Positions 780-25,351 of a DNA stretch of 64,000 nt are shown one piece after another. Made by a program: the position numbers and the translations under genes. The first letter of the stretch is position 1. Every line of letters begins with the position of its first letter. Below the pieces are notes generated by a model that saw nothing but the letters and a program-made list of their open reading frames with translations, searched no databases and had not been told where the DNA came from. The stretch is from Actinomadura spongiicola (GTDB taxonomy: Bacteria; Actinomycetota; Actinomycetes; Streptosporangiales; Streptosporangiaceae), in NCBI RefSeq assembly GCF_003432485.1, contig NZ_QVNQ01000009.1:124001-188000 (forward strand), given 5' to 3'.

Positions 780-2219
780 ATGACACAGACAACCGATCGG
801 CGGGGGATCATTCCCGACCGGGGGTCGCGGGACGGGGCCGGTGGGGTGGCGCTGGCCGTCATCCTGCTCGGGCAGTTCATGTGCATCCTGGACACCAACA
901 TCGTCAACGTCGCCCTGCCGACGCTGCGCGCCGACCTGCACGCGTCCGGCGCCGGGCTCCAGCTCGTGGTGGCCGGGTACATCATCGCCTTCGCGGTGCT
1001 GCTGATCACGGGGGCGCGGCTCGGTCGCCTCGCCGGCCATCGCCGCATGTACCAGGCGGGCCTCGCGGCGTTCACCGTGGCGTCGCTGGCGTGCGGGCTG
1101 GCGCCCTCCACGGGGACGCTCGTGGGCTTCCGCTTCCTCCAGGGGGCCGCGGCGGCGCTGCTGACACCGCAGGTGATGTCCATGATCCAGCGGAGCTTCA
1201 CCGGCGCGGCGCGGGGGCGGGCGATCGGGCTGTACACGGCGACCATCGGGGGCGGCGTCGTGGTCGGGCAGGTGGCCGGGGGCGTGCTGGTGAGCGCGGA
1301 CCTGTTCGGCGCGGGCTGGCGGACGGTCTTCCTGGTGAACGTGCCGATCGGTGCCGCGCTGCTGCTCGCCGGGCCGCGCGTCCTGCCGCGCGACGAGCCC
1401 CGGTCGCGCGGTGCGGGGGTGCGCGGCGAGCTGGACGTCGCGGGGCTGCTGACGTTGAGCCCGGCGGTGCTGCTGTTCGTCGTCCCGCTGATCATGGGGC
1501 ATGAGCTGGGCTGGCCGGCGTGGGGGTGGGCGTCGCTGGCGGCGAGCGTCGTGTTCGTGGCCGCCTTCGTCCTCGTGGAGCGGCGGTTCGCGGCCACGGG
1601 CGGACGGCCGCTGCTCTCGGCCCGGGTGCTCCGGGCGCCGCTGCTGGCACCGGCCTGTGTCGCGCTCCTGTTCGGGCCGGGGAGCTGGGGGGCGTTCCTG
1701 TTCACCACGACGCTGCACCTCCAGGGCGGGAGGAACCTGTCGCCGGTGGAGTCGGGGCTCGCGTTCGTGCCGTGCGTCCTGGCGTACGCGCTGGTCGGGC
1801 TGACCTGGCAGCGGCTGCCCGACCGCCTGCACCGTGCCGCGGTCCCCGTCGGGTTCGTCGTCGCCGCGGCCGGCTACGCGTGGCTCGGGCCGCTCGGCGG
1901 GGGCGGCGTGGCCTACGAGGCGCTGACGGCGGTCATCGGGATGGGCCTCGGCGTCATGTCGATCACGATGACGGTCGCGCTGGCGCACGTCCCGGCCCGC
2001 GACGCGTCCGACGCGAGCGGGCTGCTGCTCACGGTGATGCAGCTCGGGCAGGTGATCGGGATCGCCACCGTCGGAACGCTGTTCCTGACGCTGGCCGGGC
2101 CCGGCGGCGCGACCGGGCACGCCGAGTACGGCACGGGGTGGGCGCTCTCGGCGGTGGCGCTCTTCGGCGCCGCGGCGGGGCTGTTCCTCGCCCGCGGCCG
2201 AAGGCCGAAGGCTCAGTAG
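780..2219 (+). CDS. MFS transporter, DHA2 (EmrB/QacA) drug:H+ antiporter family
   Basis: A 479-residue, strongly hydrophobic protein that should sit in the cytoplasmic membrane with about 14 helices and export small molecules with proton exchange. The N-terminal motif LDTNIVNVALPTL (about residues 37-49) is diagnostic of the 14-helix DHA2 branch. The loop after helix 2 carries the family's motif A in weakened form (GARLGRLAGHRR). A glycine-rich stretch GGGVVVGQVAGG matches antiporter motif C. The frame is open further upstream, but residues before the ATG at 780 are not membrane-like and would overlap the divergent regulator. It is probably controlled by that adjacent XRE protein. The substrate cannot be told from sequence. 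Confidence 0.88.
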   Translation: MTQTTDRRGIIPDRGSRDGAGGVALAVILLGQFMCILDTNIVNVALPTLRADLHASGAGLQLVVAGYIIAFAVLLITGARLGRLAGHRRMYQAGLAAFTVASLACGLAPSTGTLVGFRFLQGAAAALLTPQVMSMIQRSFTGAARGRAIGLYTATIGGGVVVGQVAGGVLVSADLFGAGWRTVFLVNVPIGAALLLAGPRVLPRDEPRSRGAGVRGELDVAGLLTLSPAVLLFVVPLIMGHELGWPAWGWASLAASVVFVAAFVLVERRFAATGGRPLLSARVLRAPLLAPACVALLFGPGSWGAFLFTTTLHLQGGRNLSPVESGLAFVPCVLAYALVGLTWQRLPDRLHRAAVPVGFVVAAAGYAWLGPLGGGGVAYEALTAVIGMGLGVMSITMTVALAHVPARDASDASGLLLTVMQLGQVIGIATVGTLFLTLAGPGGATGHAEYGTGWALSAVALFGAAAGLFLARGRRPKAQ

Positions 2220-3088
2220 CGCGTCAGGCGGGCGCGGGCCGCCTCCACGGCGGGCGGGACCGGGCGGCGGGCGCCGACCAGGCCGGGCAGGGCGCGGGCC
2301 GCGTCGGCGAGCCCCGCGCGGCCGTCCCGGGTGGTCAGCGCCGACACGGCGGCGCGGCCGACGACCGGGAGCGGGCGGCGCAGCCACGCGGTCAGCACCC
2401 GGTTGCGGACCTCGCGGCGGCGGCGCGCGGACGGGTCGCGGCCCGCCGTGGACGGGTGGTGGTGGACGACGAGTTCGGGCACGTAGGCGAGGCCCCACCC
2501 GGCGGCGGCCAGGTCGAGGGCGAGCAGTTCCTCCTCGCCGCCGAAGTGCAGGACGCGGGAGAACCCGCCCGCGTCGAGGAACGCGTCGCGCCGCACGATG
2601 ACCGAGCAGGCGAGGAAGCCGAGGACGGCGGGTCCTGGCAGCCCGTCCGGGCGGCCGAGGGGCGAGCGGGCCATCAACTCGGAGACGGGCTCCGGCCGCT
2701 GCTCGTCGCCGACGAGCACGCGGGCCGCGAGCAGCGCCGTCCGTGGATGCGCGTCGAGGATCTCCACGGCGCGGTCGAGGGAGCCGGGCGCCCACCACGA
2801 GTCGTCGTCGGCGAACGCGACGAACCGGGTCGTGGCGTGCTCGGCGGCGACGGTGCGGGCGGCGGCGCCGAGGTTGCGCGGCAGCCGGAGCACGCGGGCC
2901 CCGGCCGCCTCGGCGACCTCCGCGGTGTCGTCGCGGGACGCGTTGTCGGCCACGATGACCGGGGCGTGCCCCTCACCGGCGGCGTGCCCGGCGGCGTGGC
3001 GGGCGAGGCTGCGGCGCAGCTCCGGCGCGCGGTCGCGGGTCGCCACCACCACGGTCACGGCGGCCCCGCCATCGGTGTCGACGCCCAT
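2213..3088 (-). CDS. Glycosyltransferase family 2
   Basis: A 291-residue GT-A fold enzyme expected to move a sugar from a nucleotide donor to a growing surface glycan. The nucleotide-binding start VTVVVATRDR (about residues 11-20), the VADNASRDDT segment and the metal-binding DDD triplet (about 94-96, in FADDDSWW) are all present. FGGEEELLALDL resembles the acceptor-side ED motif region. The ATG at 3088 has a strong ribosome site (TAGGAGG, 5 bp away). It lies 9 bp downstream of a paralogous GT2 and its 3' end overlaps the MFS stop region by 7 bp, convergently. The two GT2 genes probably form one leftward unit divergent from the heptose operon. Confidence 0.88.
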   Translation of the reverse strand: MGVDTDGGAAVTVVVATRDRAPELRRSLARHAAGHAAGEGHAPVIVADNASRDDTAEVAEAAGARVLRLPRNLGAAARTVAAEHATTRFVAFADDDSWWAPGSLDRAVEILDAHPRTALLAARVLVGDEQRPEPVSELMARSPLGRPDGLPGPAVLGFLACSVIVRRDAFLDAGGFSRVLHFGGEEELLALDLAAAGWGLAYVPELVVHHHPSTAGRDPSARRRREVRNRVLTAWLRRPLPVVGRAAVSALTTRDGRAGLADAARALPGLVGARRPVPPAVEAARARLTRY

Positions 3089-3097
3089 GGGGTCCTC

Positions 3098-3985
3098 CTA
3101 GCTCACGTAGCGGCGGGCCGTGGACTCCCGCTGGGAGGTCTCCAGGCGGCGGAGCCGGGCCTCGACGTCCGGGGGCAGCGGCCGCCGCTCCCGGGCCACC
3201 CAGGCGAGGCCCGCGGCGGCCTCGGCGAGCGCGCCCGCGGTGACGCGGTCGCGCGGGAGCGTGCGCAGCAGCGCGGCGGTGCGGCGGGCGGCGGCGGGCA
3301 GCGGGCGGCGCAGCCAGGTGAACCACAGCGTGTTGCGGATGCCGTGCCGCCGCCGCAGGTGCGCCTCGCGGACCCGGGACGGCTCGTGGTGCACGACGAC
3401 GTCCTCGGCGAAGCACAGCCACCAGCCGAGCGCCATCAGGTCGGCGCTCAGCAGTTCCTCCTCGCCGCCGAGCCACAGCCGCGCGGAGAACCCGCCCGCC
3501 TCGCGGAACGCGTCCGTCCGCACCATGGACGCCCCGGCGAGGAACGACCCGAGCGCGGGGCCCGGCAGCCACGGCGGCCCGGGGACGGGCGAGTGCCGCA
3601 GTTCGGGCACGATCGGGTCCTCGCGGCCGCCGGGGTCGACCAGGATCCGTCCGGTGACGACCGCGAGCCGGGGGCGCGCGTCGAGCAGGTGTGCGGCACG
3701 GGACGGCGCGTCCGGCTCCCACCAGGTGTCGTCGTCGCAGAACGCCACGTAGGGGGTGCGGACGTGGTCCACGGCGACGTTGCGGGCGACGGCGCCGAGG
3801 TTGCGCGACGACCGGATCAGCCGGGCTTCGGGGTACTCGCGCGCCACGGCGTCGGCGCTGCCGTCCCGCGAGGCGTTGTCCACGACGATGACCGGAGACC
3901 GCTCCCGGAGCTCTCGGACGCGGGCGAGCGTCGCGAGCAGGGACCGGCGCCGGTCCCGGGTGATGACGACCACCGTGAACCTCAT
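3098..3985 (-). CDS. Glycosyltransferase family 2
   Basis: A 295-residue GT2 enzyme, clearly a paralogue of the gene just downstream. It has the same layout: FTVVVITRD at the N-terminus, VVDNASRDGS, RNLGAVARNV, the DDD metal site (about 84-86, FCDDDTWW), then LGGEEELLSADL. The ATG at 3985 starts immediately before the first beta strand, as is usual in the family. A TTG at 4027 with GAGGA upstream would add 14 residues and cannot be excluded. The donor and acceptor are unknown. The divergent operon makes an activated heptose, so a role in the same glycan is a fair inference. Confidence 0.85.
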   Translation of the reverse strand: MRFTVVVITRDRRRSLLATLARVRELRERSPVIVVDNASRDGSADAVAREYPEARLIRSSRNLGAVARNVAVDHVRTPYVAFCDDDTWWEPDAPSRAAHLLDARPRLAVVTGRILVDPGGREDPIVPELRHSPVPGPPWLPGPALGSFLAGASMVRTDAFREAGGFSARLWLGGEEELLSADLMALGWWLCFAEDVVVHHEPSRVREAHLRRRHGIRNTLWFTWLRRPLPAAARRTAALLRTLPRDRVTAGALAEAAAGLAWVARERRPLPPDVEARLRRLETSQRESTARRYVS

Positions 3986-4027
3986 GAATCCGCTGTACCC
4001 GGGCCTTTCGCCTGTATGTGAAGACAA

Positions 4028-4222
4028 TCCTCATTATCTGGCACTTCAACTACAAGCGACTTTTCGGACTTTAGCGTTTAGGGCCATGGTCTGCGGCAAT
4101 GTCCCGGCCGGAGGTCGAAATCACCTATAGGGAATTTCGCTCCCCGTAGGAACCACCAGGGCCGATGCCTACGACGACGGCATCGCCCATTCACCGAACG
4201 CTGCGCCGAAACGGGGTCATCC
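4028..4222. promoter_or_regulatory. Divergent promoter region of the glycan locus
   Basis: About 195 bp between the leftward GT2 pair and the rightward carbamoyltransferase operon. It is notably richer in A and T than the flanking genes, especially 4030-4085 and 4120-4140, as expected for a divergent promoter. I could not assign clear -35/-10 hexamers or an operator. Confidence 0.5.
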
Positions 4223-5863
4223 ATGCGCGTGCTCGGAATAAATGCGATCTTCCACGACCCGGCCGCCGCGCTGACCGTGGACGGCGCCGTCGTCGCGGCG
4301 GCGGAGGAAGAGCGCTTCAGCCGCCGCAAGCACGGGAAACGTCCGGTGCCGTTCTCCGCCTGGGAACCGCCCGAGAAGGCGGCCCGCTGGTGCCTGGAGG
4401 AGGCCGGGCTGGAGCCCGGTGACCTCGACGCGGTCGCCTACTCCTACGACCCCGACCTCGTCGAGCCCGGAATCGACGGCCACGACGAGCAGTGGGAACG
4501 GTTGCGCACGCTGTACGCGCGGCGCGCCCCGAACTTCCTCGCGACCGCGCTGCCCGGGCTGGATCCCGGGATCGTCCGGTACGTCCCTCACCATGTGGCG
4601 CACGCCGCGTCCGCCGCGCTCGCCGCGCCCGGGCCGGGCGACGGCGACGTGCTGGTCCTCGACGGCCGCGGCGAGTCGCACTCCCATCTGGCCGGGACCT
4701 ACCGGAACGGCGTCCTGACACCGCTGTGCGCGCAGCGGCTGCCGCACTCGCTGGGCCTGATGTACGAGGAGCTCACCGAGCACCTCGGCTTCCTGCGCTC
4801 CAGCGACGAGTACAAGGTGATGGCGCTGGCGTCCTACGGCGAGCCGCGGTTCGCGGACGAGCTGCGCGAGCACGTCCGCGCCACGGGAGACGGCGGCTTC
4901 ACGGCCGCCCGCGTCGACTGGGGCGCGCTCGCCAAGGCGCGCCGGCCCGGCGGCGAGTGGACCCGCGACCACGCCGACCTCGCCGCCAGCGCCCAGGTCC
5001 GCCTCGAAGAGGTCCTGCTGGAGCTGGCCGCGTGGCTGCACGGCCGCACCGGCTCCCGGCGCCTGACGCTCGCCGGGGGCGTCGCGTTGAACTGCGTCGC
5101 CAACTCCCGGCTCGCCGCGACCGGCCCGTACGACGACGTGTGGGTGCAGCCCGCCGCGGGCGACGCGGGAACGGCGCTCGGCGCCGCGCTGCACGTGGCG
5201 CGCGACGGCGGCGACCCGCTCACCGCCATGCCCGGCGCGGACCTCGGCCGCCACTTCGACGACCGGGAGATCGCCCGGTGGCTCGACACCGCCGGGATTC
5301 CCCACGAGCGGCCGGACGACCTGGCCGCCGCCGTGGCGGACGCGCTCGCCCGCAACGAGATCGTCGCCTGGTTCCAGGGCCGGTCGGAGTTCGGCCCGCG
5401 CGCCCTCGGACGCCGCTCGCTGCTCGCCCATCCCGGGCACGCGGGCAACGTGGAGCGGCTCAACGACGTCAAGGGCCGCGAGCAGTTCCGGCCGATCGCG
5501 CCGATGGTCGCGCTCGACCACGCGGCGGAGATCTTCGACGGTCCGCTGCCCAGCCCGTACATGCTGTTCGTCCACGAGGTGCGACCACACTGGCGGGAGC
5601 GGATACCCGCGGTCGTGCACGTGGACGGCACCGCCCGCATCCAGACGGTCGCGGCCGCCGACGAGCCGCTCCTCGCGCGCCTGCTGGAGGAGTTCCGCCG
5701 CCGCACCGGCCTGCCCGTCGTCGTCAACACCAGCCTGAACACCGCCGGAAGGCCGATGGTCGACGACCCGCGCGACGCGCTGGAGTGCTTCGGCTCCGCC
5801 CCGGTCGACCTGCTCGCCATCGGCCCCTACGTGGTGCGCCGCCGGGAGGTGCACGCCCGATGA
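4223..5863 (+). CDS. Carbamoyltransferase, NodU/CmcH family
   Basis: A 546-residue enzyme of the family that transfers a carbamoyl group from carbamoyl phosphate, via carbamoyl-AMP, onto a hydroxyl of a sugar or antibiotic. The N-terminal half is the Kae1-like ATPase fold: it starts VLGINAIFHDPAAAL, has HHVAHAASA, and contains LAGGVALNCVANSRL. The C-terminal half has the family block WFQGRSEFGPRALGRRSLLA and NTSLN. Length is normal. It is the first gene of the rightward operon and its stop overlaps the next start (ATGA). In this setting it probably decorates the heptose-containing glycan with a carbamate; the acceptor is inferred only from context. Confidence 0.9.
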   Translation: MRVLGINAIFHDPAAALTVDGAVVAAAEEERFSRRKHGKRPVPFSAWEPPEKAARWCLEEAGLEPGDLDAVAYSYDPDLVEPGIDGHDEQWERLRTLYARRAPNFLATALPGLDPGIVRYVPHHVAHAASAALAAPGPGDGDVLVLDGRGESHSHLAGTYRNGVLTPLCAQRLPHSLGLMYEELTEHLGFLRSSDEYKVMALASYGEPRFADELREHVRATGDGGFTAARVDWGALAKARRPGGEWTRDHADLAASAQVRLEEVLLELAAWLHGRTGSRRLTLAGGVALNCVANSRLAATGPYDDVWVQPAAGDAGTALGAALHVARDGGDPLTAMPGADLGRHFDDREIARWLDTAGIPHERPDDLAAAVADALARNEIVAWFQGRSEFGPRALGRRSLLAHPGHAGNVERLNDVKGREQFRPIAPMVALDHAAEIFDGPLPSPYMLFVHEVRPHWRERIPAVVHVDGTARIQTVAAADEPLLARLLEEFRRRTGLPVVVNTSLNTAGRPMVDDPRDALECFGSAPVDLLAIGPYVVRRREVHAR

Positions 5864-7419
5864 ACCGCACCGTCGTCATTCCCACGATCGGCAGGGAGAG
5901 CCTGCGCGCGACGTTGCGCGCCCTGCTCGACGCCAGCGCCGCCGACCCCGGATCGGCGCCGCGGGAGATCATCGTCGTGGACGACCGTCCCGGGCCCGGC
6001 GCCCCGCTCCCCCTCCCGGCGGAGACCGCCCCCGTCCCTGACGGGGGCACGACCGCCCGCGTCCCTCGCGACGGCCCGGAGATCCGGGTGATCCGCTCCG
6101 GCGGGCGCGGCCCCGCCGCCGCCCGGAACGCGGGCTGGCGCGCCGCGACGACCGAGTGGGTCGCGTTCCTGGACGACGACGTCGTGCCCGCGCCCGGGTG
6201 GCCCGCCGCACTGGCCGCCGACCTCGGTGGCCTGCCACCCGGGGTCGGCGGTTCCCAGGGCCGGGTCACGGTCCCGCCGCCGGACGGCGGCCGGGCCCCG
6301 ACGGACTGGGAGCGGGGCACCGCCGCGCTGGCGGGCGCCGACTGGATCACCGCCGACATGGCCTACCGGCGCGGCGTCCTGGAGGAGGTCGGCGGTTTCG
6401 ACGAGCGGTTCCGCCGCGCCTACCGGGAGGACGCCGACCTGGCGCTGCGCGTCCTGGACGCCGGGCACGGCCTCGTCCTCGGCGCCCGGAGGGTGACGCA
6501 TCCGGTGCGTCCCGCCGGGTTCTGGGCGTCGGTGCGGGCGCAGGCGGGGAACGCCGACGACGTCCTCATGTGGCGGGTGCACGGCCGGTGCTGGCGCGCC
6601 CGCGCGGGCGAGGGGCGCGGCCTGCTCCGCCGTCATGTCACGACCACCGCGGCGGGCCTGCTCTCGGTCGCGACGGCGCCGGCGGCCCGGCACGGCCGCC
6701 CGACCGTGCACCTGGCCGCCGTGGCCGCGTGGGCCGTGCTGACGGCCCGGTTCGCGCACCGGCGGATCAGGCCGGGGCCACGGACACCGGACGAGATCCT
6801 CAAGATGACCGTGACCAGCGCCGCGATCCCGCCCGTCGCGGTGTGGCACCGGCTCCGGGGTCTGGTCGTCCACCGCCGCGCCGGACGCTGGGACGGGCCG
6901 TGGGCCGTGCTGTTCGACCGCGACGACACCCTCATCAAGGACGTTCCGTACAACGGGGACCCGGCGCGGGTGGAGCCGATGCCGGGCGCGCGACGCGCCC
7001 TGGACCGGCTGCGGCGCCACGGCGCCCGCATCGGCGTCGTGTCCAACCAGTCGGGCGTCGCCAAGGGGCACATCACCGCCGACGACGTGCGGCGCGTCAA
7101 CGCGCGGGTCGAGGAGCTGCTCGGCCGCGTCGACGTCTGGGAGTTCTGCCCCCACGACGGCGACGACGCCTGCGACTGCCGCAAGCCGCGCCCCGGGATG
7201 ATCGTGCGGGCGGCGCGGCGGCTCGGCGTGCCGCCGTCCGGCTGCGCCGTCATCGGCGACATCGGCCGCGACGTCGAGGCCGCCGCGGCGGCGGGCGCCC
7301 GCGGCATCCTCGTCCCGACCCGCCGCACCCTCGCGGCGGAGATCGCGCGGGCGCCGGAGACGGCGCCGACGCTGCTCGCCGCCGTCGATCTGGTCCTCGG
7401 CGGAAGGCGGCGCCGATGA
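5860..7419 (+). CDS. Fusion: glycosyltransferase family 2 + HAD-IIIA D,D-heptose bisphosphate phosphatase (GmhB-like)
   Basis: A 519-residue two-domain protein. Residues about 1-330 are a GT2 domain with VVIPTIGRES at the start, the metal triplet DDD at 105-107 (FLDDDVVPAPGW) and an FRRAYREDADLALRV acceptor motif. Residues about 345-515 are a HAD phosphatase of the GmhB/histidinol-phosphatase type: nucleophile motif DRDDT at 353-357, VSNQSGVAKG, the zinc-loop cysteines in CPHDGDDACDCRKPRPGM, and VIGDIGRDVEAA. GmhB removes the 7-phosphate from D-glycero-D-manno-heptose 1,7-bisphosphate. The ATG overlaps the upstream stop (ATGA). Fusing a pathway phosphatase to a transferase is unusual, but both active sites look intact. 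Confidence 0.88.
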   Translation: MNRTVVIPTIGRESLRATLRALLDASAADPGSAPREIIVVDDRPGPGAPLPLPAETAPVPDGGTTARVPRDGPEIRVIRSGGRGPAAARNAGWRAATTEWVAFLDDDVVPAPGWPAALAADLGGLPPGVGGSQGRVTVPPPDGGRAPTDWERGTAALAGADWITADMAYRRGVLEEVGGFDERFRRAYREDADLALRVLDAGHGLVLGARRVTHPVRPAGFWASVRAQAGNADDVLMWRVHGRCWRARAGEGRGLLRRHVTTTAAGLLSVATAPAARHGRPTVHLAAVAAWAVLTARFAHRRIRPGPRTPDEILKMTVTSAAIPPVAVWHRLRGLVVHRRAGRWDGPWAVLFDRDDTLIKDVPYNGDPARVEPMPGARRALDRLRRHGARIGVVSNQSGVAKGHITADDVRRVNARVEELLGRVDVWEFCPHDGDDACDCRKPRPGMIVRAARRLGVPPSGCAVIGDIGRDVEAAAAAGARGILVPTRRTLAAEIARAPETAPTLLAAVDLVLGGRRRR

Positions 7420-8444
7420 GGGTCCTCGTGTCCCGCCAGGACAACCTCGGCGACGTGCTCCTCGCCGGGCCCGCCGTGCGGGCGGTCGCCGCCCGCGCCG
7501 ACGAGGTCGTGCTGCTGTGCGGCCCCCGCGGCCGCGCCGCCGCCGACCTGCTGCCCGGCGTCGACCACGTCATCGAGTGGCGCGCCCCGTGGATCGACCC
7601 GGACCACGTCCCGGTCAGGCGCGACGAGATCGACGAGCTGACGCGCGGGCTCCGCGGCTTCGACCGCGCGCTGATCCTGACCTCGTTCCACCAGTCGCCG
7701 CTGCCGCTGGCGCTGCTGCTGCGCCTGGCCGGGACACCGTGGATCGGCGGCATCAGCGAGGACTACCCCGGCTCGCTGCTCGACCTGCGGCACCGTCCCG
7801 ACGAGGACGTGCCGGAGCCGCTGCGCATGCTCGCGCTGGCCGAGGACGCCGGGTTCCCGTCCCCCGACGACGCGCGGCTGCGGGTCCGGGGCCCGCTCCC
7901 TGACACCGGTCATCTCACCGGCGGCCCCGGGTACGTCGTCGTGCATCCGGGGACGTCCGTGCCCGCGCGGGCCTGGCCGCCGCACCGCTGCGCCGAGGCG
8001 GTCCGGGTGCTGGACGCGGCGGGCCACCGCGTCGTCGTCACCGGCCACGGCGACGAGAAGGAACTGACCGCGCTCGTCGCCGGGGAGGACGGCCTGGACC
8101 TCGGCGGCCGGACCACGCTGCCGGAACTGGCGTCGGTGCTGGCGGGCGCCCGCGCCGTCGTCGCCGGCAACACCGGGCCCGCGCATCTGGCGGCGGCGGT
8201 GGGCACGCCCGTCGTGTCGCTGTTCGCCCCGACCGTGCCCGCGGCCCGGTGGGCGCCGTTCGGGGTCCCGATGGCGCTGCTCGGCGACCAGCAGGCGCCG
8301 TGCAAGGACAGCCGCGCCCGCGAGTGCCCGGTCGACGGCCACCCGTGCCTGTCGTCCGTCGGCGCCGACGAGGTCGCCGCCGCCCTGGAGATCGTGATGA
8401 GACGGGAGGCCGTGCCGTCCGACGAGAAGGTGGGTACCCGGTGA
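7416..8444 (+). CDS. Glycosyltransferase family 9 (heptosyltransferase-like)
   Basis: A 342-residue GT-B protein of the ADP-heptose transferase family. It begins RVLVSRQDNLGDVLLAGPAVRA, the family's conserved N-terminal block. The C-terminal donor site is recognisable as VVHPGTSVPARAWPPHRCAE, VVTGHGDEKEL and AGNTGPAHLAAAVGTPVVSLFAP. The start overlaps the preceding stop by 4 bp. It likely transfers the heptose made by this operon from its nucleotide donor onto a lipid-linked or surface glycan; that the donor is ADP-heptose is inferred from HldE downstream. Confidence 0.9.
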   Translation: MRVLVSRQDNLGDVLLAGPAVRAVAARADEVVLLCGPRGRAAADLLPGVDHVIEWRAPWIDPDHVPVRRDEIDELTRGLRGFDRALILTSFHQSPLPLALLLRLAGTPWIGGISEDYPGSLLDLRHRPDEDVPEPLRMLALAEDAGFPSPDDARLRVRGPLPDTGHLTGGPGYVVVHPGTSVPARAWPPHRCAEAVRVLDAAGHRVVVTGHGDEKELTALVAGEDGLDLGGRTTLPELASVLAGARAVVAGNTGPAHLAAAVGTPVVSLFAPTVPAARWAPFGVPMALLGDQQAPCKDSRARECPVDGHPCLSSVGADEVAAALEIVMRREAVPSDEKVGTR

Positions 8445-9436
8445 GAGTTCTGCTGTGGCACGTGCACGGCTCGTGGGCGACGTCGTTCGTCCACGGCCCG
8501 TGGACCACGCTCGTCCCGGTCACCCCGGACCGCGGCCCGGACGGGAGGGGACGGCCCGACACGTTCACCTGGCCCGACCGGGCGGTCGAGGTGCCGCCCG
8601 AACGGCTCCGCGACGAGGACGTCGACGTCGTCGTCCTGCAACGCCCCCACGAGCTGCGGCTGGCCGAGGAATGGCTCGGCCGCCGCCCCGGACGCGACGT
8701 CCCCGCCGTCTACGTCGAGCACGACACGCCGCGCCGGACGCCGTCCGACATCGGGCTGCCCGAGGAGGTCGTCCCCGACAGCCGCCACTTCCTGCATGAC
8801 CGCTCCGACATCCTGGTCGTCCACGTCACGCACTTCAACCGGCTGTTCTGGAACTGCGGCGACGCCCCGACCCGGGTCATCGAGCACGGCGTCGTCGACC
8901 CCGGCTACCGGTACACCGCCGACATGCCGCGGGCGGGCGTCGTCATCAACGACCCGCTGCGCCGGGGCCGCGTCGCCGGGACCGACCTGCTCGCCGAACT
9001 CGCGGGCGCGGTGCCGCTCGACCTGTTCGGGATGAACGTCACCGGCGTCCCCGACCGGCTCGGCATCCCGCACGAGTCGCTGTGGACCTTCGAGGACCTG
9101 CCGCAGGCGAGGATGCACGAGGAACTCGCCCGCCGCCGCGTCTATGTCCACCCCTACCGGTGGACGTCCCTCGGCCTCGCGCTGATCGAGGCCATGATGC
9201 TCGGCCTGCCCGTGGTGGCGCTCGCCACCACCGAGGCGGTCGAGGCGGTGCCGCCGGAGGCCGGGGTGCTGTCCACGCGCGTCGCCACGCTGGCGGACGC
9301 CGCGCGGACCCTGGCCGCCGACCCGCCGCGGGCCCGCCAGATGGGCAAGGAGGCGCGGGCCCACGCCGTCGACCGGTACGGCCTGGCGCGCTTCCTGCGC
9401 GACTGGCGGCGAACTCTCCGGGAGGTAACGCGATGA
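8441..9436 (+). CDS. Glycosyltransferase, family 4-like
   Basis: A 331-residue GT-B-type enzyme. The N-terminus (VLLWHVHGSWATSFVHGPW) is the acceptor-side Rossmann domain. The C-terminal half has HPYRWTSLGLALIEAMMLGLPVVAL, the usual donor-site motif with the glutamate of the E-x7-E region, although the family's first glutamate is replaced. The start is GTG within GTGA at the previous stop. It is part of the continuous heptose/carbamoyl operon, so it probably builds the same glycan. Donor sugar and linkage cannot be predicted. Confidence 0.8.
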   Translation: MRVLLWHVHGSWATSFVHGPWTTLVPVTPDRGPDGRGRPDTFTWPDRAVEVPPERLRDEDVDVVVLQRPHELRLAEEWLGRRPGRDVPAVYVEHDTPRRTPSDIGLPEEVVPDSRHFLHDRSDILVVHVTHFNRLFWNCGDAPTRVIEHGVVDPGYRYTADMPRAGVVINDPLRRGRVAGTDLLAELAGAVPLDLFGMNVTGVPDRLGIPHESLWTFEDLPQARMHEELARRRVYVHPYRWTSLGLALIEAMMLGLPVVALATTEAVEAVPPEAGVLSTRVATLADAARTLAADPPRARQMGKEARAHAVDRYGLARFLRDWRRTLREVTR

Positions 9437-10686
9437 GGATAGCCATGATCTCCGAGCACGCCAGCCCCCTCGCCGCCGGGCGCGGCGCGGCGGCCGGCGG
9501 CCCCACGGGCAAGGGACTGGGCGGGGCCGACGGCGGCGGGCAGAACGTGTTCGTCGCGGAACTGGCCGCCGAGCTCGGTCGCCAGGGGCACTACGTCACC
9601 GTCTACACCCGCCGCGACTCCCCCGCCCAGCGGGAAAGGGTGCGGCTGGCGCCCGGCGTGACCGTCGAGCACGTCCCCGCCGGTCCGCCCGAGCACATCC
9701 CCAAGGACGACCTGCTGCCGTGGATGCACGACTTCGGGCGTTACCTGGAGCGGCGGTGGGCCGCCGACCCTCCCGACGTCGCGCACGCCCACTTCTGGAT
9801 GAGCGGGCTCGCCGCGGTCCAGGCCGCGCAGGCGGCCGGCCGGCCGCGCGTGCCGGTCGTGCAGACCTACCACGCGCTCGGCACGGTGAAGCGCCGCCAC
9901 CAGGGCGACGGGGACACCAGCCCGGCGTCGCGGATCAGGCTGGAACGCGCCGTCGGGCGCGCCGTCGACGGCGTGCTCGCCACCTGCTCGGACGAGCTCA
10001 CCGAACTGGCCGCGATGGGCGTCCCGCGCGACCGCGTCCACGTGGTGCCGTGCGGCGTCGACGTCGACCTCTTCACCCCCGACGGCCGCACGACGATGAC
10101 GCGGGGCCGTGACGGGCACCGGCTGGTGGTGCTGTCACGGCTCGTCGAACGCAAGGGCGTCGACACCGCCATCCGGGCGCTCGCGCACGTCCCGGGCGCG
10201 AGGCTCACCGTCGCGGGCGGCCCGCGCCGCGGCGACCTGCACACCGACCCGGAGGTCCGCAGGCTGCGGGACGTGGCCCTGGACGCGGGCGTCGCCGGGC
10301 GGGTGGAGTTCCTCGGCCGCGTCGGCCGCGACGAGGTCCCCCCGCTGCTCCGGTCGGCGAGCCTCGTGGTGACGCTGCCCTGGTACGAGCCGTTCGGGAT
10401 GGTGCCGCTGGAGGCCATGGCCTGCGGCGTCCCCGTCGTCGCGAGCGCCGTCGGCGGTCATCTCGACACGGTCGTCGACGGCGTCACCGGCGTCCACGTC
10501 CCGCCCCGCGACCCGGAAGCCGCGGCCCGCGCGATCCGGGCGCTGCTGGACGACCCCGCCGGACGCGCCGGAATGGGTTTCGCGGGCGGCGACCGGGCCC
10601 GTGACCGCTACTCCTGGACCCGTGTCGCCGCCGACACGACGGAGGTGTACCGCCACGCCGCGGCGCTGAGCGAGGTGGCCGCATGA
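9433..10686 (+). CDS. Glycosyltransferase family 4
   Basis: A 417-residue GT4 enzyme with an N-terminal insertion rich in Gly and Ala that ends GGADGGGQNVFVAELAAELG, as in sucrose-phosphate synthase/MshA-like proteins. The donor domain shows LVVLSRLVERKGVDTAIRAL and PWYEPFGMVPLEAMACGVPVVAS, which contains the E-x7-E catalytic signature. It overlaps both neighbours by ATGA. The sequence does not decide the donor; MshA itself (mycothiol synthesis) is unlikely in this operon setting. Confidence 0.87.
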   Translation: MRIAMISEHASPLAAGRGAAAGGPTGKGLGGADGGGQNVFVAELAAELGRQGHYVTVYTRRDSPAQRERVRLAPGVTVEHVPAGPPEHIPKDDLLPWMHDFGRYLERRWAADPPDVAHAHFWMSGLAAVQAAQAAGRPRVPVVQTYHALGTVKRRHQGDGDTSPASRIRLERAVGRAVDGVLATCSDELTELAAMGVPRDRVHVVPCGVDVDLFTPDGRTTMTRGRDGHRLVVLSRLVERKGVDTAIRALAHVPGARLTVAGGPRRGDLHTDPEVRRLRDVALDAGVAGRVEFLGRVGRDEVPPLLRSASLVVTLPWYEPFGMVPLEAMACGVPVVASAVGGHLDTVVDGVTGVHVPPRDPEAAARAIRALLDDPAGRAGMGFAGGDRARDRYSWTRVAADTTEVYRHAAALSEVAA

Positions 10687-11279
10687 CGCAGACGGCGCAG
10701 ACCAGGACCTCCACCGACCGGGACCGGCGGCTGGAGGCGCTCGCGGAGGCGGCGCTGCGGTTCCGCGCGCAGGTGCCCACCATCGAGGCGTGGGGCCGCG
10801 ACCTCGCCCGCGTGCTGCGCGGCGGCGGGCGGCTGCTGGCGTGCGGCAACGGCGGCAGCGCCGCCGAGGCGCAGCATCTGACCGCCGAGCTCGTCGGCCG
10901 GTTCGAGGACGACCGGCGGCCGCTGTCGGCGATCCCGCTGCACGCCGACACCTCGGCGACCACCGCGATCGGCAACGACTACGGTCCCGTCGACGTGTTC
11001 GCGCGGCAGGTCCAGGCGCACGGCCGCCGCGGCGACGTGCTGGTGTGCCTGTCGACCAGCGGGCGCAGCCCCAACGTCCTCGCGGCGGCGCACCGGGCGC
11101 GGCGGCTCGGCGTCGCCGCGTGGGCCGTCACCGGTCCGGGGCCGAACCCGCTGACCGAGGCCTGCGACGACGCCGTCACCGTGGACGCCCGGGCGACCTC
11201 GACCGTGCAGGAGATCCATCTCGCCGCGATCCACCTGCTGTGCGGGGTGGTCGACGAGACGCTGGGGGTGGGGAGATGA
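10683..11279 (+). CDS. gmhA: Phosphoheptose isomerase (sedoheptulose 7-phosphate isomerase)
   Basis: A 198-residue single SIS-domain protein. It converts sedoheptulose 7-phosphate to D-glycero-D-manno-heptose 7-phosphate, the first committed step of activated heptose synthesis in the cytosol. The signature LLACGNGGSAAEAQHLTAELVGRFE, the later LSTSGRSPNV phosphate loop, and the C-terminal EIHLAAIHLLCGVVD (metal-ligand helix) match GmhA well. Length is typical. ATGA overlaps on both sides couple it to a GT4 upstream and the HldE-like enzyme downstream. Confidence 0.93.
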   Translation: MTQTAQTRTSTDRDRRLEALAEAALRFRAQVPTIEAWGRDLARVLRGGGRLLACGNGGSAAEAQHLTAELVGRFEDDRRPLSAIPLHADTSATTAIGNDYGPVDVFARQVQAHGRRGDVLVCLSTSGRSPNVLAAAHRARRLGVAAWAVTGPGPNPLTEACDDAVTVDARATSTVQEIHLAAIHLLCGVVDETLGVGR

Positions 11280-12751
11280 GCCCGCGATCCACCCCGCGAC
11301 CGACCGCGCGGCCCACCGCCCGGACCGCGCCGCGGTCCGGGGGGCCGCTGGTCGTCGTGGGGGACGTGCTCCTCGACGTCGACATCGTCGGAAGCAGCAG
11401 CCGGCTCTGCCCGGACGCGCCCGTGCCCGTCGTCGAGCAGGCCGAGGAGCGGCCCCGTCCCGGCGGCGCTGGCCTCGCGGCGCTGCTCGCGGCGGCCGAC
11501 GGGCGGGAGGTGGTCCTGGTCACCGCGCTCGCCGACGACGACCGCGGGCGGCGGCTGCGCGCGATGCTGGACCGGCATGTGGAGGTCGCCGCGCTCCACC
11601 TGCACGGCAGCACCCCGTGCAAGCTGCGGATCCGGTCCGGCGGGCAGTCGGTGGCGCGGCTGGACGCCGGGGAGGGCCGGGCCCTGGACGGGCCCGTCGG
11701 CCCGCGGGTCGCCGACGCGATCGCGGGCGCGGGCGCGGTGCTGGTGTCCGACTACGGTCGCGGCGTCACGGGGCACCGCGCCGTCCGGTCGCTGCTCGGC
11801 GGGCTGCCCCCGGACGTGCCCGTCGTGTGGGACCCGCATCCGCGCGGTGAGGCCCCCGTCCCCGGCGTGCGGCTGCTGACCCCGAACGAGGAGGAGGCGG
11901 CCCGGCTCGCCGCCGCGGACGGCGCCGACATCACCGGGTTCGGGCTGTCGGCGGCCGGGCGGCGCGGCCGCCATCTCGGTCGCGCCTGGAACATCGAGGG
12001 CGTCGCGGTGACGCTCGGCGCGGAGGGGGCGCTGCTGTGCGACGGGTCGGAGGCGCCGTTCCTCGCGCCCGCCCGACCCGCGCGGGGCGACGCGTGCGGC
12101 GCGGGCGACAGCTTCGCCGCCGGGGCCGTCGCCGCGCTCGCGGACGGCGGAACGCTCGCCGGCGCCGTCACCGAGGGCGTCGACCGGGCGTCGGAGTTCG
12201 TCCGCGCGGGGGCCGCCGCGGCCGTCGCCGCGCAGCTCGCCGAGACCGGCACCGCCCGGCTCGCGCCCGAGCGCGGCGACGACGCCTGGGACGTGGTCGA
12301 GCGGACCCGCCGGGCGGGCGGCACGGTCGTGGCGACCGGCGGCTGCTTCGACCTGCTCCACGCCGGCCATGTCAGCCTGCTGCAGCAGGCGCGGCGGCTC
12401 GGCGACTGCCTCATCGTGTGCGTGAACTCCGACGCGTCGGTGCGGCGCCGCAAGGGCCCGTCCCGTCCGGTGACGCCCGCCGCCGACCGCGTCCGGGTGC
12501 TGGAGGCGCTCAGCGACGTCGACGCCGCGGTCGTCTTCGACGACGACACCCCGGCGCCGCTGCTGGAGCGGCTTCGCCCGGACGTGTGGGTGAAGGGCGC
12601 CGACTACGCGGGAACGACGCTGCCCGAGGCCGGGACGGTCCGGGCCCACGGCGGCGAGGTCGTCCTGCTGCCCCTCCTGGAGGGGCGTTCCACGACGCGT
12701 CTGCTGTCGACGACGCGATCGACGCCGACCACGAAGGGAAACGTGTCATGA
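11276..12751 (+). CDS. hldE: Bifunctional D-glycero-beta-D-manno-heptose 7-phosphate kinase / 1-phosphate adenylyltransferase
   Basis: A 491-residue fused enzyme. Residues about 22-330 are a PfkB/ribokinase domain with VVVGDVLLDVDIVG and the catalytic RGDACGAGDSFAAGAVAAL. Residues about 345-480 are a nucleotidyltransferase with GGCFDLLHAGHVSLLQQAR (HxGH motif) and VNSDASVRRRKGP. It phosphorylates heptose 7-phosphate at C1, then, after GmhB removes the 7-phosphate, adds AMP to make ADP-heptose. The first 20 residues are Arg/Pro/Thr-rich and probably disordered. The order matches E. coli HldE. The gene overlaps gmhA and the following SDR by 4 bp each. Confidence 0.92.
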   Translation: MSPRSTPRPTARPTARTAPRSGGPLVVVGDVLLDVDIVGSSSRLCPDAPVPVVEQAEERPRPGGAGLAALLAAADGREVVLVTALADDDRGRRLRAMLDRHVEVAALHLHGSTPCKLRIRSGGQSVARLDAGEGRALDGPVGPRVADAIAGAGAVLVSDYGRGVTGHRAVRSLLGGLPPDVPVVWDPHPRGEAPVPGVRLLTPNEEEAARLAAADGADITGFGLSAAGRRGRHLGRAWNIEGVAVTLGAEGALLCDGSEAPFLAPARPARGDACGAGDSFAAGAVAALADGGTLAGAVTEGVDRASEFVRAGAAAAVAAQLAETGTARLAPERGDDAWDVVERTRRAGGTVVATGGCFDLLHAGHVSLLQQARRLGDCLIVCVNSDASVRRRKGPSRPVTPAADRVRVLEALSDVDAAVVFDDDTPAPLLERLRPDVWVKGADYAGTTLPEAGTVRAHGGEVVLLPLLEGRSTTRLLSTTRSTPTTKGNVS

Positions 12752-13425
12752 ACGTCCTCATTACCGGTGGCGCCTCGGGGCTCGGCGAGGCCGTCGCGCG
12801 CAGGGTCGCGGCGGACGGCGGGCGCCCGCTCGTCCTCGACCGGCATCCCCCGAAGGACGACGTCGAGTACCGGCAGGCCGACCTGGCGGACCGCAAGTGC
12901 GCCGAACTCGCCGTGCACGGCCTGGCCCGCGCCGCCGGGGGCCTGAACGCCGTCGTCACCGCCGCGGGCATCGACGCGTGCGGGGCGCTCTGCGACGTCC
13001 CCGCCGAGGACTGGGAGCGGGTCGTGCAGGTGAACCTGCTCGGCACCGTCACCGTCGTCCGCGCCGCGCTCCCCTACCTGGAGAACGAGCCGCACGGCCG
13101 GGTCGTCACCATCGGGTCGACGCTCGGGCTGCGCGCCGTGAGCGACGCCACCGCCTACTGCGCGTCCAAGTTCGGGGTCGTCGGGTTCACCCGGGCGCTC
13201 GCCGCCGAGACGGCCGGGAAGGTCGCCGTCACGATGGTCGTGCCCGGCGGCATGGACACCGCGTTCTTCGACGACCGCGCCGACAAGTACAAGCCCGGCC
13301 CGGACGCCACGCTCAACCAGCCCGGTGACGTGGCGGCGACCATCGCGTTCGCGCTGTCCCAGCCTCCGGGCTGCGAGGTGCGGGAGATGGTCGTCTGCCC
13401 GTCCCGGGAGACGTCGTGGCCCTGA
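12748..13425 (+). CDS. Short-chain dehydrogenase/reductase
   Basis: A 225-residue classical SDR. The cofactor site VLITGGASGLGEAV and the catalytic Ser and YCASK motif (IGSTLGLRAVSDATAYCASK) are intact. It is short for the family, with little C-terminal extension. It is not an HldD-type epimerase, which is an extended SDR, so it more likely reduces or oxidises a sugar or a glycan building block. It is coupled to hldE by ATGA and its end overlaps the next GT9 by 10 bp. Confidence 0.87.
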   Translation: MNVLITGGASGLGEAVARRVAADGGRPLVLDRHPPKDDVEYRQADLADRKCAELAVHGLARAAGGLNAVVTAAGIDACGALCDVPAEDWERVVQVNLLGTVTVVRAALPYLENEPHGRVVTIGSTLGLRAVSDATAYCASKFGVVGFTRALAAETAGKVAVTMVVPGGMDTAFFDDRADKYKPGPDATLNQPGDVAATIAFALSQPPGCEVREMVVCPSRETSWP

Positions 13426-14354
13426 CCGGCCACCGGATCGTGGTCCTGCGCGCGCTCGGCCTCGGCGACCTGCTGACGGCCGTCCCGGCGCTGCGGGCCC
13501 TGCGCCGCGGTACGCCCGGCGCGCGGGTCACGCTCGCCGCGCCCGCCGGGCTCGGTCCGCTCGCCCGCTCCACCGGAGCGGTCGACGACGTCGTCCCGGC
13601 GGACGGCCTGGCGCCGCTGCCGCCGCTCGGGCCGGTCGGCACGGCGGTGAACCTGCACGGCCGGGGACCGGAGAGCCACCGCGTCCTCGCCGCGCTGCCA
13701 CCGCGCCGGCTGCTCGCGTTCGCCTGCGCCGGGGCCGGGCACGCCGACGGGCCCGCGTGGGATCCGGACGAGCACGAGGTGGCGCGGTGGTGCCGGCTCG
13801 TGTCCTCCTACGGGTTCGCCGCCGACCCGGGCGACCTGGACCTGCCCGCTCCGGCGGGTCCCTCGCCCGCGCCGGGCGCCGTGGTCGTGCATCCGGGGGC
13901 GGCGTTCCCTGCTCGTCGCTGGCCCGCCGACCGGTTCGCGGCGGTCGCGGCGGCGCTGCGGGACGGCGGCGAACGCGTCGTCGTCACCGGCGGCCCGGGC
14001 GAGACGGCCCTCGCCCGCCGCGTCGTGGACCTCGCCGGCCTGCCGGTCGAGGCGGACCTGTCGGGCCGCACCCGGCTCACCGAGCTGGCCGCGCTCGTCG
14101 CGGGCGCACGGCTGGTGGTGTGCGGCGACACCGGCGTGGCGCACCTCGCGACCGCGTACCGCACCCCGTCGGTGCTGCTGTTCGGCCCGACGCCGCCCGC
14201 CCGCTGGGGGCCGCCCGCCCGGGACGAGCACCTGGTGCTGTGGGCGGGCCGGCGCGGCGACCCGCACGGCTCCGAGCCGTGCCCCGGCCTGCTGGAGATC
14301 TCCGCGGACGACGCCGTGGCGGCCGCCGGCAGGGCGCTCACCCGCACCCGTTGA
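13416..14354 (+). CDS. Glycosyltransferase family 9 (heptosyltransferase-like)
   Basis: A 312-residue GT9, the second in this operon. It has the N-terminal block IVVLRALGLGDLLTAVPALRAL, the VVHPGAAFPARRWPADRFA phosphate-side motif, VTGGPGETALAR and CGDTGVAHLATAYRTPSVLLFGP. It starts with GTG inside the 3' end of the SDR. Two distinct GT9 enzymes suggest at least two heptose residues, or two acceptor positions, in the product; this is inference. Confidence 0.9.
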   Translation: MALTGHRIVVLRALGLGDLLTAVPALRALRRGTPGARVTLAAPAGLGPLARSTGAVDDVVPADGLAPLPPLGPVGTAVNLHGRGPESHRVLAALPPRRLLAFACAGAGHADGPAWDPDEHEVARWCRLVSSYGFAADPGDLDLPAPAGPSPAPGAVVVHPGAAFPARRWPADRFAAVAAALRDGGERVVVTGGPGETALARRVVDLAGLPVEADLSGRTRLTELAALVAGARLVVCGDTGVAHLATAYRTPSVLLFGPTPPARWGPPARDEHLVLWAGRRGDPHGSEPCPGLLEISADDAVAAAGRALTRTR

Positions 14355-14376
14355 AGTCCCGCCGAAGGGGAACACG

Positions 14377-15333
14377 ATGAGACATCCACGCGCCGTCGTC
14401 ACCGGCGGCTCCGGCTTCCTCGGCTCGCACCTGTGCGAGGCGCTGCTGGCCCGGGGCATCTCGGTGGTGTGCCTGGACAACCTGCTGACCGGGACGTCCC
14501 GCAACATCGCGCACCTGACCGGGCGGCGCGACTTCCGGTTCCTGAAACGCGACCTGACCGACCCGGTGCACGTCCCCGGAGAGGTCGGCTACGTCTTCCA
14601 TCTGGCGTCGGCCGCGTCCCCCGCCGACTACCTGCGGCTGCCGATCCAGACGCTGGAGGTCGGCAGCCAGGGCACCCGCAACGCGCTGGAACTCGCCGAG
14701 GGCAAGAACGCCCGGTTCGTGCTCGCCTCCACCTCCGAGGTGTACGGGGACCCGCTGGTGCATCCGCAGCCCGAGTCGTACTGGGGGAACGTGAACCCGG
14801 TCGGGCCGCGCAGCGTGTACGACGAGGCGAAACGGTTCGGGGAGGCGCTCACGTCGGCGTTCCGGCACGCCCGCGGCCTCGACACCGGGATCGTGCGGAT
14901 CTTCAACAGCTACGGGCCGCGGATGCGACCCGACGACGGCCGCGCCATCCCGACGTTCCTGCGGCAGGCGCTGACCGGCGAGGACCTCACGGTGACCGGG
15001 GACGGGTCGCAGACCCGTTCGATCTGTCATGTCGACGACACCGTCCGCGGCATCCTCGCCCTCGCCACCGCCGATCATCCCGGGCCGATGAACATCGGCA
15101 GCCCCTACGAGATCTCCATGGCGGACCTCGCCCAACTGATCATCGACCTGACGGGGTCGCGGTCACGGATCCGGTTCGTCGACCGTCCGGCGGACGACCC
15201 CCGCGTCCGGCGGCCCGACACCCGGCTGGCCGAGGACGTGCTCGACTGGCGTCCCCGCATCACGGTCGAGAACGGTCTACGCGGCACGATCGAGTGGTTC
15301 GCGCGGGAACTGGTGACCGCCCGACCCGCCTGA
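14377..15333 (+). CDS. Extended SDR NDP-sugar enzyme, UDP-glucuronate decarboxylase (UXS)-like
   Basis: A 318-residue extended SDR with VTGGSGFLGSHLCEALL at the N-terminus. The region HPQPESYWGNVNPVGPRSVYDEAKRF carries the YxxxK pair and the WGNVNPxGxRSxYDE signature of UDP-glucuronate decarboxylases, which make UDP-xylose. NAD is tightly held in that family. The ribosome site is AAGGGGA, and the gene is 22 bp after the GT9 and last in the operon. dTDP-glucose dehydratase is an alternative, but the signature fits UXS better. The UDP-glucuronate source could be the UDP-glucose dehydrogenase encoded at 58.3-59.7 kb. Confidence 0.82.
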   Translation: MRHPRAVVTGGSGFLGSHLCEALLARGISVVCLDNLLTGTSRNIAHLTGRRDFRFLKRDLTDPVHVPGEVGYVFHLASAASPADYLRLPIQTLEVGSQGTRNALELAEGKNARFVLASTSEVYGDPLVHPQPESYWGNVNPVGPRSVYDEAKRFGEALTSAFRHARGLDTGIVRIFNSYGPRMRPDDGRAIPTFLRQALTGEDLTVTGDGSQTRSICHVDDTVRGILALATADHPGPMNIGSPYEISMADLAQLIIDLTGSRSRIRFVDRPADDPRVRRPDTRLAEDVLDWRPRITVENGLRGTIEWFARELVTARPA

Positions 15334-25349: not shown

Positions 25350-25351
25350 CG

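Follow-up and report, generated by a model that had tools for sequence, protein, structure and literature searches.

The cwg operon of Streptomyces has a counterpart in Actinomadura

Within a 64,000-nucleotide stretch of the Actinomadura spongiicola genome (contig NZ_QVNQ01000009.1, positions 124,001 to 188,000; hereafter the window), the locus at positions 2213-15333 is, judged by its gene types, the equivalent in Actinomadura of the cwg operon known from Streptomyces, and not an orphan. It probably directs the synthesis of an envelope glycan or glycolipid that carries D,D-heptose, xylose and a carbamate, where we infer all substrates, the acceptor and the location of the product. The locus is real and conserved, its kind is already known, and it is chemically unsolved in the literature found. 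An earlier reading of the same DNA (hereafter the original prediction) had proposed a product with heptose and perhaps a carbamate for an organism that lacks lipopolysaccharide (LPS). To that chemistry the present analysis adds xylose, the D,D- rather than the L,D-form of heptose, and the identity with cwg.

Gene calls and domain searches reveal a ten-gene operon, which runs on a single strand from a carbamoyltransferase to a UDP-xylose synthase (UXS; Table 1), together with a pair of divergent GT2 genes, and they bear out each of the gene families previously named. The operon had been described as almost gapless, and indeed 8 of its 9 junctions overlap (seven by 4 bases, one by 10), with a 22-base gap at the remaining one. 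The GmhB domain that had been noted is present but sits in the C-terminal part of a 519-amino-acid GT2 protein. Because this domain belongs to a GT2 protein, the locus has three GT2 domains rather than only the two divergent ones counted before, for a total of seven glycosyltransferase domains (three GT2, two GT4 and two GT9). The genes listed originally are all there, but a short-chain dehydrogenase/reductase (SDR) gene between HldE and the second GT9 gene had been overlooked.

The cwg operon comprises twelve genes, SCO6179-6190 (Hong et al., 2002, as cited in PMC6767563, PMC5839063 and PMC13011467). Our comparison was made on loci of S. violaceoruber, S. coelicoflavus and other Streptomyces, and the match to S. 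coelicolor A3(2) is by published descriptions and these relatives. In such loci, for example L095, the genes run UXS, carbamoyltransferase, GT2, GmhB, GT9, GT4, GT4, GmhA, HldE, GT9, GT2, GT2. All twelve gene types occur in the window, where GmhB is a domain and not a gene, and the relative order carbamoyltransferase-GT2-GmhB-GT9-GT4-GT4-GmhA-HldE-GT9 is common to the Actinomadura and Streptomyces loci. The Actinomadura arrangement differs in that UXS comes last instead of first, two GT2 genes are divergent, the third GT2 is fused to GmhB, and an SDR gene is added. The eighth and ninth genes of the 12-gene Streptomyces loci are GmhA and HldE, matching the published cwgH (SCO6186, a putative phosphoheptose isomerase) and cwgI (SCO6187, a putative bifunctional synthase/transferase) (PMC5839063; PMC6767563).

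Published work on cwg describes a single promoter, induction by vancomycin and partial dependence on sigmaE, and predicts a cell wall glycan as the product (PMC6767563). The surface glycan among the products considered in the original prediction agrees with this cell wall glycan, which other authors have proposed for the Streptomyces operon. Under salt, cwgA and the divergent gene SCO6178 are activated (PMC13011467), the latter being annotated as a putative deacetylase in PMC6767563 and as a glycoside hydrolase in PMC13011467. In the Streptomyces loci L080, L095, L105, L106 and L110, a divergent gene of one cluster adjoins UXS, and the L095 copy is a polysaccharide deacetylase by Pfam. The cwg genes are also reported to be 1.3- to 4.3-fold up in an argR mutant, a rise that would suit a consumer of carbamoyl phosphate. 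The receptor glycan of umbrella toxins was considered and set aside, as it is of the teichuronic acid type and made by other genes, with no mention of heptose or cwg in the accessible part of the paper (PMC13274773).

Distribution of the locus among actinomycetes

Two sets of loci were examined. The first is an even draw of 296 genomes from the class, in which an HldE relative is found at an E value of 1e-20 or better in 70, the host genome being one of them; the 69 others provide 70 loci (two from one genome) in 18 families. The second comprises 80 named loci, which are the best HldE matches among the matches listed and lean towards Actinomadura and Streptomyces, such that the even draw is the better basis for counts. 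Thresholds for presence, both in the class neighbourhoods and in the tblastn searches of the named loci, were set by us, and loci cut by contig ends are included, so true absences may be fewer than those given here.

The original prediction had suggested looking for the same gene order in other actinomycetes, and this search finds the block conserved around HldE. Among the 69 class genomes, the neighbourhood contains GT9 E and an above-threshold HldE in 66 each, GT4 G in 65, GmhB in 64, GmhA in 63, GT4 F in 58, GT9 K in 57, the SDR in 53, the carbamoyltransferase and the GT2 of protein D in 49 each, UXS in 46, GT2 A in 26 and GT2 B in 15. A UDP-glucose dehydrogenase gene is nearby in 8 and a PS_pyruv_trans-like gene in 3. 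Since similar gene types surround HldE in most of these genomes, the locus is not a chance grouping. These counts also divide it into a near-constant heptose core (GmhB, GT9, GT4, GT4, GmhA and HldE, usually with the SDR and the second GT9) and variable carbamate, GT2 and xylose parts. Carbamoyltransferase and UXS are both near hldE in 44 genomes and both missing in 18 (carbamoyltransferase alone in 5, UXS alone in 2), and carbamoyltransferase and the D-type GT2 are both present in 48 and both missing in 19, with one alone in 1 and 1. For one family of this sample (f18, 8 genomes), the search gave no SDR near hldE, a point relevant to the idea that the SDR might take the place of the epimerase HldD (see below).

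At closer range, the full order A', B', carbamoyltransferase, GT2-GmhB, GT9, GT4, GT4, GmhA, HldE, SDR, GT9, UXS is identical in twelve loci (L034-L045). Over the matched stretch, the window HldE shows 92% identity to the Actinomadura rifamycini protein; for the other Actinomadura in the best 14 loci among the matches listed, the identity is 72-92%. More distantly, a draw of 296 genomes across the phylum yields 23 with HldE at 1e-80, of which 14 do not belong to the class. The 14 neighbourhoods (one only 4.8 kb) have GT9 E, GT4 G and GmhA in 13 and carbamoyltransferase in 12; UXS was not found within the stretches examined. Relatives of UXS occur in 142 of the 296 genomes of the phylum-wide search, a figure that reflects merely how common UXS is.

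Several loci depart from the usual pattern. A second HldE relative lies near the cwg-type HldE in L073, L113, L133, L135, L146, L149, L150 and L194, including a Parafrankia, sometimes accompanied by an extra GT9, and perhaps belongs to a second heptose branch; second copies in the class draw are about 40% identical. Carbamoyltransferase is missing from the stretches taken for 12 Geodermatophilaceae loci (L064, L070, L072, L077, L079, L081-L084, L087, L102 and L103; one only 5.8 kb), and in 11 of the 12 a protein of about 540 amino acids adjoins GT9 K, with a weak von Willebrand factor A match under cut-off in the one tested. The order carbamoyltransferase-GT2-GmhB-GT9-GT4-GT4-GmhA-HldE-GT9 also occurs in a metagenome-assembled genome labelled Chloroflexi (L068), by transfer or misbinning.

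A predicted route to ADP-heptose

Conserved active sites in GmhA, HldE and the GmhB domain support the proposed route from sedoheptulose 7-phosphate to ADP-heptose. Phosphoheptose isomerase is the name given to 13 of the 15 structures matched by GmhA in the PDB (best 152 bits), the other two being DiaA, and the zinc-site His, Glu, Gln and His are kept in 63 of 63 aligned copies, as found with matches at E 1e-20. In HldE, the Asp of the GAGD motif is present in 68 of 68 aligned copies (2 of 70 not aligned) and both His residues of the HxGH motif in 66 of 66 (4 of 70 not aligned); alignment A1 of HldE contains 13 of 31 extracted sequences. Similarly, residues D353, D355, S398, K442, D467, D471, C430, H432, C438 and C440 of the GmhB domain are invariant in an alignment of 17 fusions. 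All inspected active-site residues of the locus enzymes are invariant wherever aligned, save four copies of GT9 K with Asn in place of Asp.

A structure model of the GT2-GmhB fusion (mean predicted local distance difference test score, pLDDT, 90.3) has as its best PDB match the D,D-heptose 1,7-bisphosphate phosphatase 3l8h, at a template modelling (TM) score of 0.83 by target, and the first five rows against heptose bisphosphate phosphatases range from 0.79 to 0.83 by target length. The two parts are fused in 44 of the 59 loci where both were seen and split in 15 (21 of 80 undetermined), where L090 is counted as fused because one open reading frame carries both domains. The 15 split loci are Streptomyces by record titles. 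This fusion therefore ties the phosphatase to glycan assembly.

The stereochemistry of the heptose can be addressed through HldD, the fourth enzyme of the ADP-heptose pathway of Gram-negative LPS (GmhA, HldE, GmhB, HldD). The first three enzymes and two GT9 enzymes are likewise found here, but HldD is not. The HldD model (TIGR02197) exceeds its cut-off in none of 68 HldE-positive class genomes (the 69 others less G114, the weakest), with up to 27 candidates scored per genome, whereas E. coli and Caulobacter match. The best score in the host genome is 111.3 bits against a cut-off of 274.6. Because no HldD passes in the genomes searched, the heptose donor is likely to have the D,D and not the L,D configuration, and the locus would use the D,D form as such. 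The lipid A marker LpxC was not found in the 7.7 Mb host genome and matches 4 of 14 control genomes, in keeping with the earlier view of an organism without LPS. An LPS core locus is thus rejected, given no LpxC in the host and no HldD over cut-off, and the fusion of GmhB to a GT2 is a further difference from the Gram-negative pathway.

Use of ADP-heptose by Gram-positive bacteria is not new in itself, as septacidin and hygromycin B of Streptomyces are made from it according to a review. Those are strain-specific antibiotics, whereas the present locus is phylum-wide and includes seven glycosyltransferase domains. A GDP-heptose pathway with the GmhA of M. tuberculosis has also been described (PMC7705670), which is alike in placing GmhA in a Gram-positive bacterium but proceeds through GDP and the alpha branch, rather than through HldE (ADP, beta) as here. 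The host genome also has two additional GmhA relatives that adjoin each other (C1:886745-888042; L002, L003, L200) with 33-34% identity; the surrounding 19.9 kb gave no match to any other gene of the locus.

Predicted xylose, carbamate and glycosyltransferase modules

The last gene of the operon, formerly called UXS-like, matches structures of UDP-glucuronate decarboxylase 1 at 311-314 bits (human, 313.8), and the next family, UDP-glucose 4-epimerase, scores 130 bits. The Thr, Glu, Tyr, Lys and Arg that we take to be catalytic, on the assumed numbering of human UXS1, are present in 46 of 46 aligned copies. Two other assignments were rejected by comparison with the scores for UXS structures: HldD, whose model gives 59 bits, and a 4,6-dehydratase, for which the dTDP-glucose dehydratase model gives 133 bits against a cut-off of 365. 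Both the overall sequence and the five residues thus point to UDP-glucuronate decarboxylase, and it is the xylose implied by this activity that was missing from the product proposed originally.

A gene for UDP-glucose dehydrogenase lies within the stretch of 24 of the 80 named loci by thresholded tblastn, the count adopted here (clustering gives 25), for example in Nocardia, Mycobacterium, Amycolatopsis and Prauserella; UXS is present in 20 of those 24. Because the UXS gene reads as a UDP-glucuronate decarboxylase and because of these neighbouring dehydrogenase genes, xylose should be expected in the predicted product besides heptose. The dehydrogenase gene of the window is 43 kb from the operon and is one of 5 over cut-off in the host genome. 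It is a possible source of UDP-glucuronate.

The assignment of the carbamoyltransferase is supported by both NodU/TobZ-type domains and by the His, His and Asp of a presumed metal site, which are kept in 49 of 49 aligned copies. Its nearest solved structure is novobiocin carbamoyltransferase (9s2t), TobZ is matched as well, and the NodU equivalog is not reached (197.4 against a cut-off of 1000).

Among the glycosyltransferases, the two GT9 enzymes described earlier as heptosyltransferase-like are supported by PF01075 in both, and the PDB entry nearest to GT9 E is heptosyltransferase II (1psw). At one motif position, GT9 E has Asn in 66 of 66 copies, and GT9 K has Asp in 57 and Asn in 4 (one not aligned), such that the two look like distinct lineages. 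GT2 A and GT2 B are related, with 138 identical positions in a global alignment. GT4 G scores 225 bits against the MshA model TIGR03449, with a cut-off of 462.5.

A proposed pathway and its alternatives

We hypothesize that the kinase domain of HldE makes a 1,7-bisphosphate from which the GmhB domain would take off the 7-phosphate, and that the D,D form, given that HldD was not found, would serve as the heptose donor. UXS would convert UDP-glucuronate to UDP-xylose. The GT9 pair may then transfer heptoses to an acceptor, perhaps lipid-linked, at the inner face of the membrane, where GT4 and GT2 enzymes would attach hexoses and xylose, the carbamoyltransferase would place a carbamate on one sugar, and the neighbouring PS_pyruv_trans-like protein could possibly add pyruvate. 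Export machinery encoded elsewhere would move the oligosaccharide outward, to yield an envelope glycan or glycolipid that is made or adjusted under envelope stress.

A number of observations weigh against this proposal. No flippase, polymerase, LCP (LytR-CpsA-Psr) protein or exporter was found among the operon genes by domain searches, which leaves the Streptomyces regulon and the kinds of genes present as the basis for an envelope location. GmhA, the GmhB domain and the HldE kinase domain are under their NCBI equivalog cut-offs (153.3 against 209.45, 60.9 against 149.6, and 119.4 against 345 for TIGR02198), and their substrates are consequently not settled by score alone; the HldE adenylyltransferase domain (TIGR02199; 184.3 against 181.5 bits) is the sole heptose-enzyme domain to pass. 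The product cannot be identical everywhere, since 18 of the 69 class genomes are without both carbamoyltransferase and UXS near hldE. In the data sets of PMC4630627, SCO6185 (cwgG) is reported as one of the five transcripts with the greatest stability, which does not fit easily with a product made under stress. The chemistry of the product is absent from the literature found, in that neither an identified cwg product nor heptose in an Actinomadura wall appeared in the accessible text of the one collection searched. Finally, neither the window nor the Actinomadura loci gave a sigmaE-type promoter ahead of the operon, with patterns that failed on Streptomyces too: one pattern applied to the window gave no match, a stricter one applied to the named loci gave four scattered matches (L069, L080, L089 and L100), and a looser one gave none in 14 Streptomyces loci. 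An AAC...CATCTT-like site is nonetheless visible by eye in some Streptomyces loci in a partial alignment, and because the patterns do not allow such a site, this test decides nothing.

The best rival explanation is a secreted specialised metabolite, whose product would carry either a carbamoylated sugar, as in bleomycin, or a sugar derived from ADP-heptose like those of septacidin and hygromycin B. The bleomycin cluster likewise groups carbamoyltransferase, HldE-like and GT9-like genes, and the Streptomyces antibiotics mentioned above use the ADP-heptose route according to the review. Strain-specific clusters, in contrast, would not be expected to resemble a core block that recurs in most of the 69 class genomes, in 18 families and in other classes. 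Neither a nonribosomal peptide synthetase nor a polyketide synthase nor an export gene lies inside the block. The adjoining major facilitator superfamily (MFS) transporter gene (234-2219, tail to tail with GT2 A) might have filled the export role, yet no recurrent neighbour at its place was found in the short flanks of other Actinomadura loci. Thus we regard a secreted metabolite as unlikely.

The same shortage of export genes could instead indicate that the product stays inside the cell as a cytoplasmic or cofactor-type glycoconjugate, or is a glycosylated protein. Kyte-Doolittle windows, the only method applied, reveal no clear transmembrane protein in the block; hydrophobic windows in GT4 F (2.15) and GT9 K (1.80) are taken to lie within catalytic domains. 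Moreover, the mycofactocin glycosyltransferase MftF is the best NCBIfam match of both GT2 A (90.9 bits) and the GT2 part of protein D (84.6 bits). Both matches are far under the cut-off of 280, and the Streptomyces operon responds to envelope stress, which makes a non-exported product quite improbable. A more radical possibility is that GmhA, HldE and GmhB have drifted to another sugar and that no heptose is made, as the scores under equivalog cut-offs would allow. This we consider very improbable, because the GmhA zinc-site and HldE motif residues are kept in every aligned copy, the nearest structures are heptose enzymes, and of the 69 neighbourhoods, 63 have GmhA, 64 GmhB and 66 HldE above the thresholds set.

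Our preferred reading of the locus remains an envelope glycan or glycolipid that contains D,D-heptose, xylose and a carbamate. In its most general form, this proposal states that Actinomycetota without LPS have in common an envelope glycan or glycolipid, so far undescribed and inducible by stress, that is based on D-glycero-D-manno-heptose with xylose and a carbamate and is made by way of ADP-heptose, from which some lineages have dropped the carbamate and xylose modules. We hold this generalization to be about evenly poised between right and wrong. ADP-heptose is an innate-immune signal of Gram-negative bacteria. If the generalization is true, then those Nocardia and soil mycobacteria that carry the locus (L055, L069, L098 and others) would produce ADP-heptose as well, which bears on the sources of this signal, and the retention of ADP-heptose genes in bacteria without LPS would be explained. 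The cwg operon has been reported as an envelope-stress target since 2002, and the predicted D,D-heptose, xylose and carbamate say what to look for.

Other features of the window

Table 1. Genes and other features of the heptose locus and its surroundings (positions in the window).
Feature	Position	Strand	Basis
GT2 glycosyltransferase A, divergent	2213-3088	-	PF00535, 73.2 bits
GT2 glycosyltransferase B, divergent	3098-4027	-	PF00535, 69 bits
22-bp imperfect palindrome, candidate operator	4117-4138	.	between divergent GT2 genes and operon
O-carbamoyltransferase, NodU/TobZ type	4223-5863	+	PF02543, PF16861
GT2 fused to GmhB-type HAD-IIIA phosphatase (protein D)	5860-7419	+	domain searches, alignment, structure model
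GT9 heptosyltransferase-like enzyme E	7416-8444	+	PF01075, 89.5 bits
GT4 glycosyltransferase F	8441-9436	+	PF00534, 41.5 bits
GT4 glycosyltransferase G, MshA-like but under MshA cut-off	9433-10686	+	PF00534, PF13439
GmhA, predicted sedoheptulose 7-phosphate isomerase	10683-11279	+	PF13580
HldE, predicted heptose 7-phosphate kinase / heptose 1-phosphate adenylyltransferase	11276-12751	+	PF00294, PF01467
SDR oxidoreductase, no role assigned	12748-13425	+	PF00106, 138.6 bits
GT9 heptosyltransferase-like enzyme K	13416-14354	+	PF01075, 104 bits
Predicted UDP-glucuronate decarboxylase (UDP-xylose synthase, UXS)	14377-15333	+	match to solved structures
PS_pyruv_trans-like protein, possible outlying locus member	15821-16723	-	PF04230, 36 bits vs cut-off 25.3, residues 189-227 only
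UDP-glucose 6-dehydrogenase-type gene, outside operon	58293-59669	-	419.1 bits vs cut-off 189.8

The palindrome listed in Table 1 is a candidate operator for a regulator. With one mismatch allowed, the inner 18-bp form of this palindrome is found a single time in the window and at a single site in the entire genome, and a similar sequence is visible by eye in 11 of the 14 rows of an alignment that includes the window.

The PS_pyruv_trans-like gene beyond UXS is found in 34 of the 80 named loci, in one family only of the class sample and in 2 of the 14 loci outside the class. The PF04230 match spans only 39 residues, and a profile match to Pvg1p has an E value of 0.8. Its structure model (pLDDT 91) has a GT-B type fold, for which Foldseek and VIA-align return many GT-B enzymes at similar scores, most whole-length rows having a root-mean-square deviation of at least 15 Å. 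Because so many GT-B enzymes score alike, mostly at such deviations, no function was read for this protein, that of a pyruvyl transferase included.

Further along the window, at 24516-28033, a peptidase S51 family gene is directly followed by a cyanophycin synthetase-like gene, a probable pair for cyanophycin, a nitrogen store.

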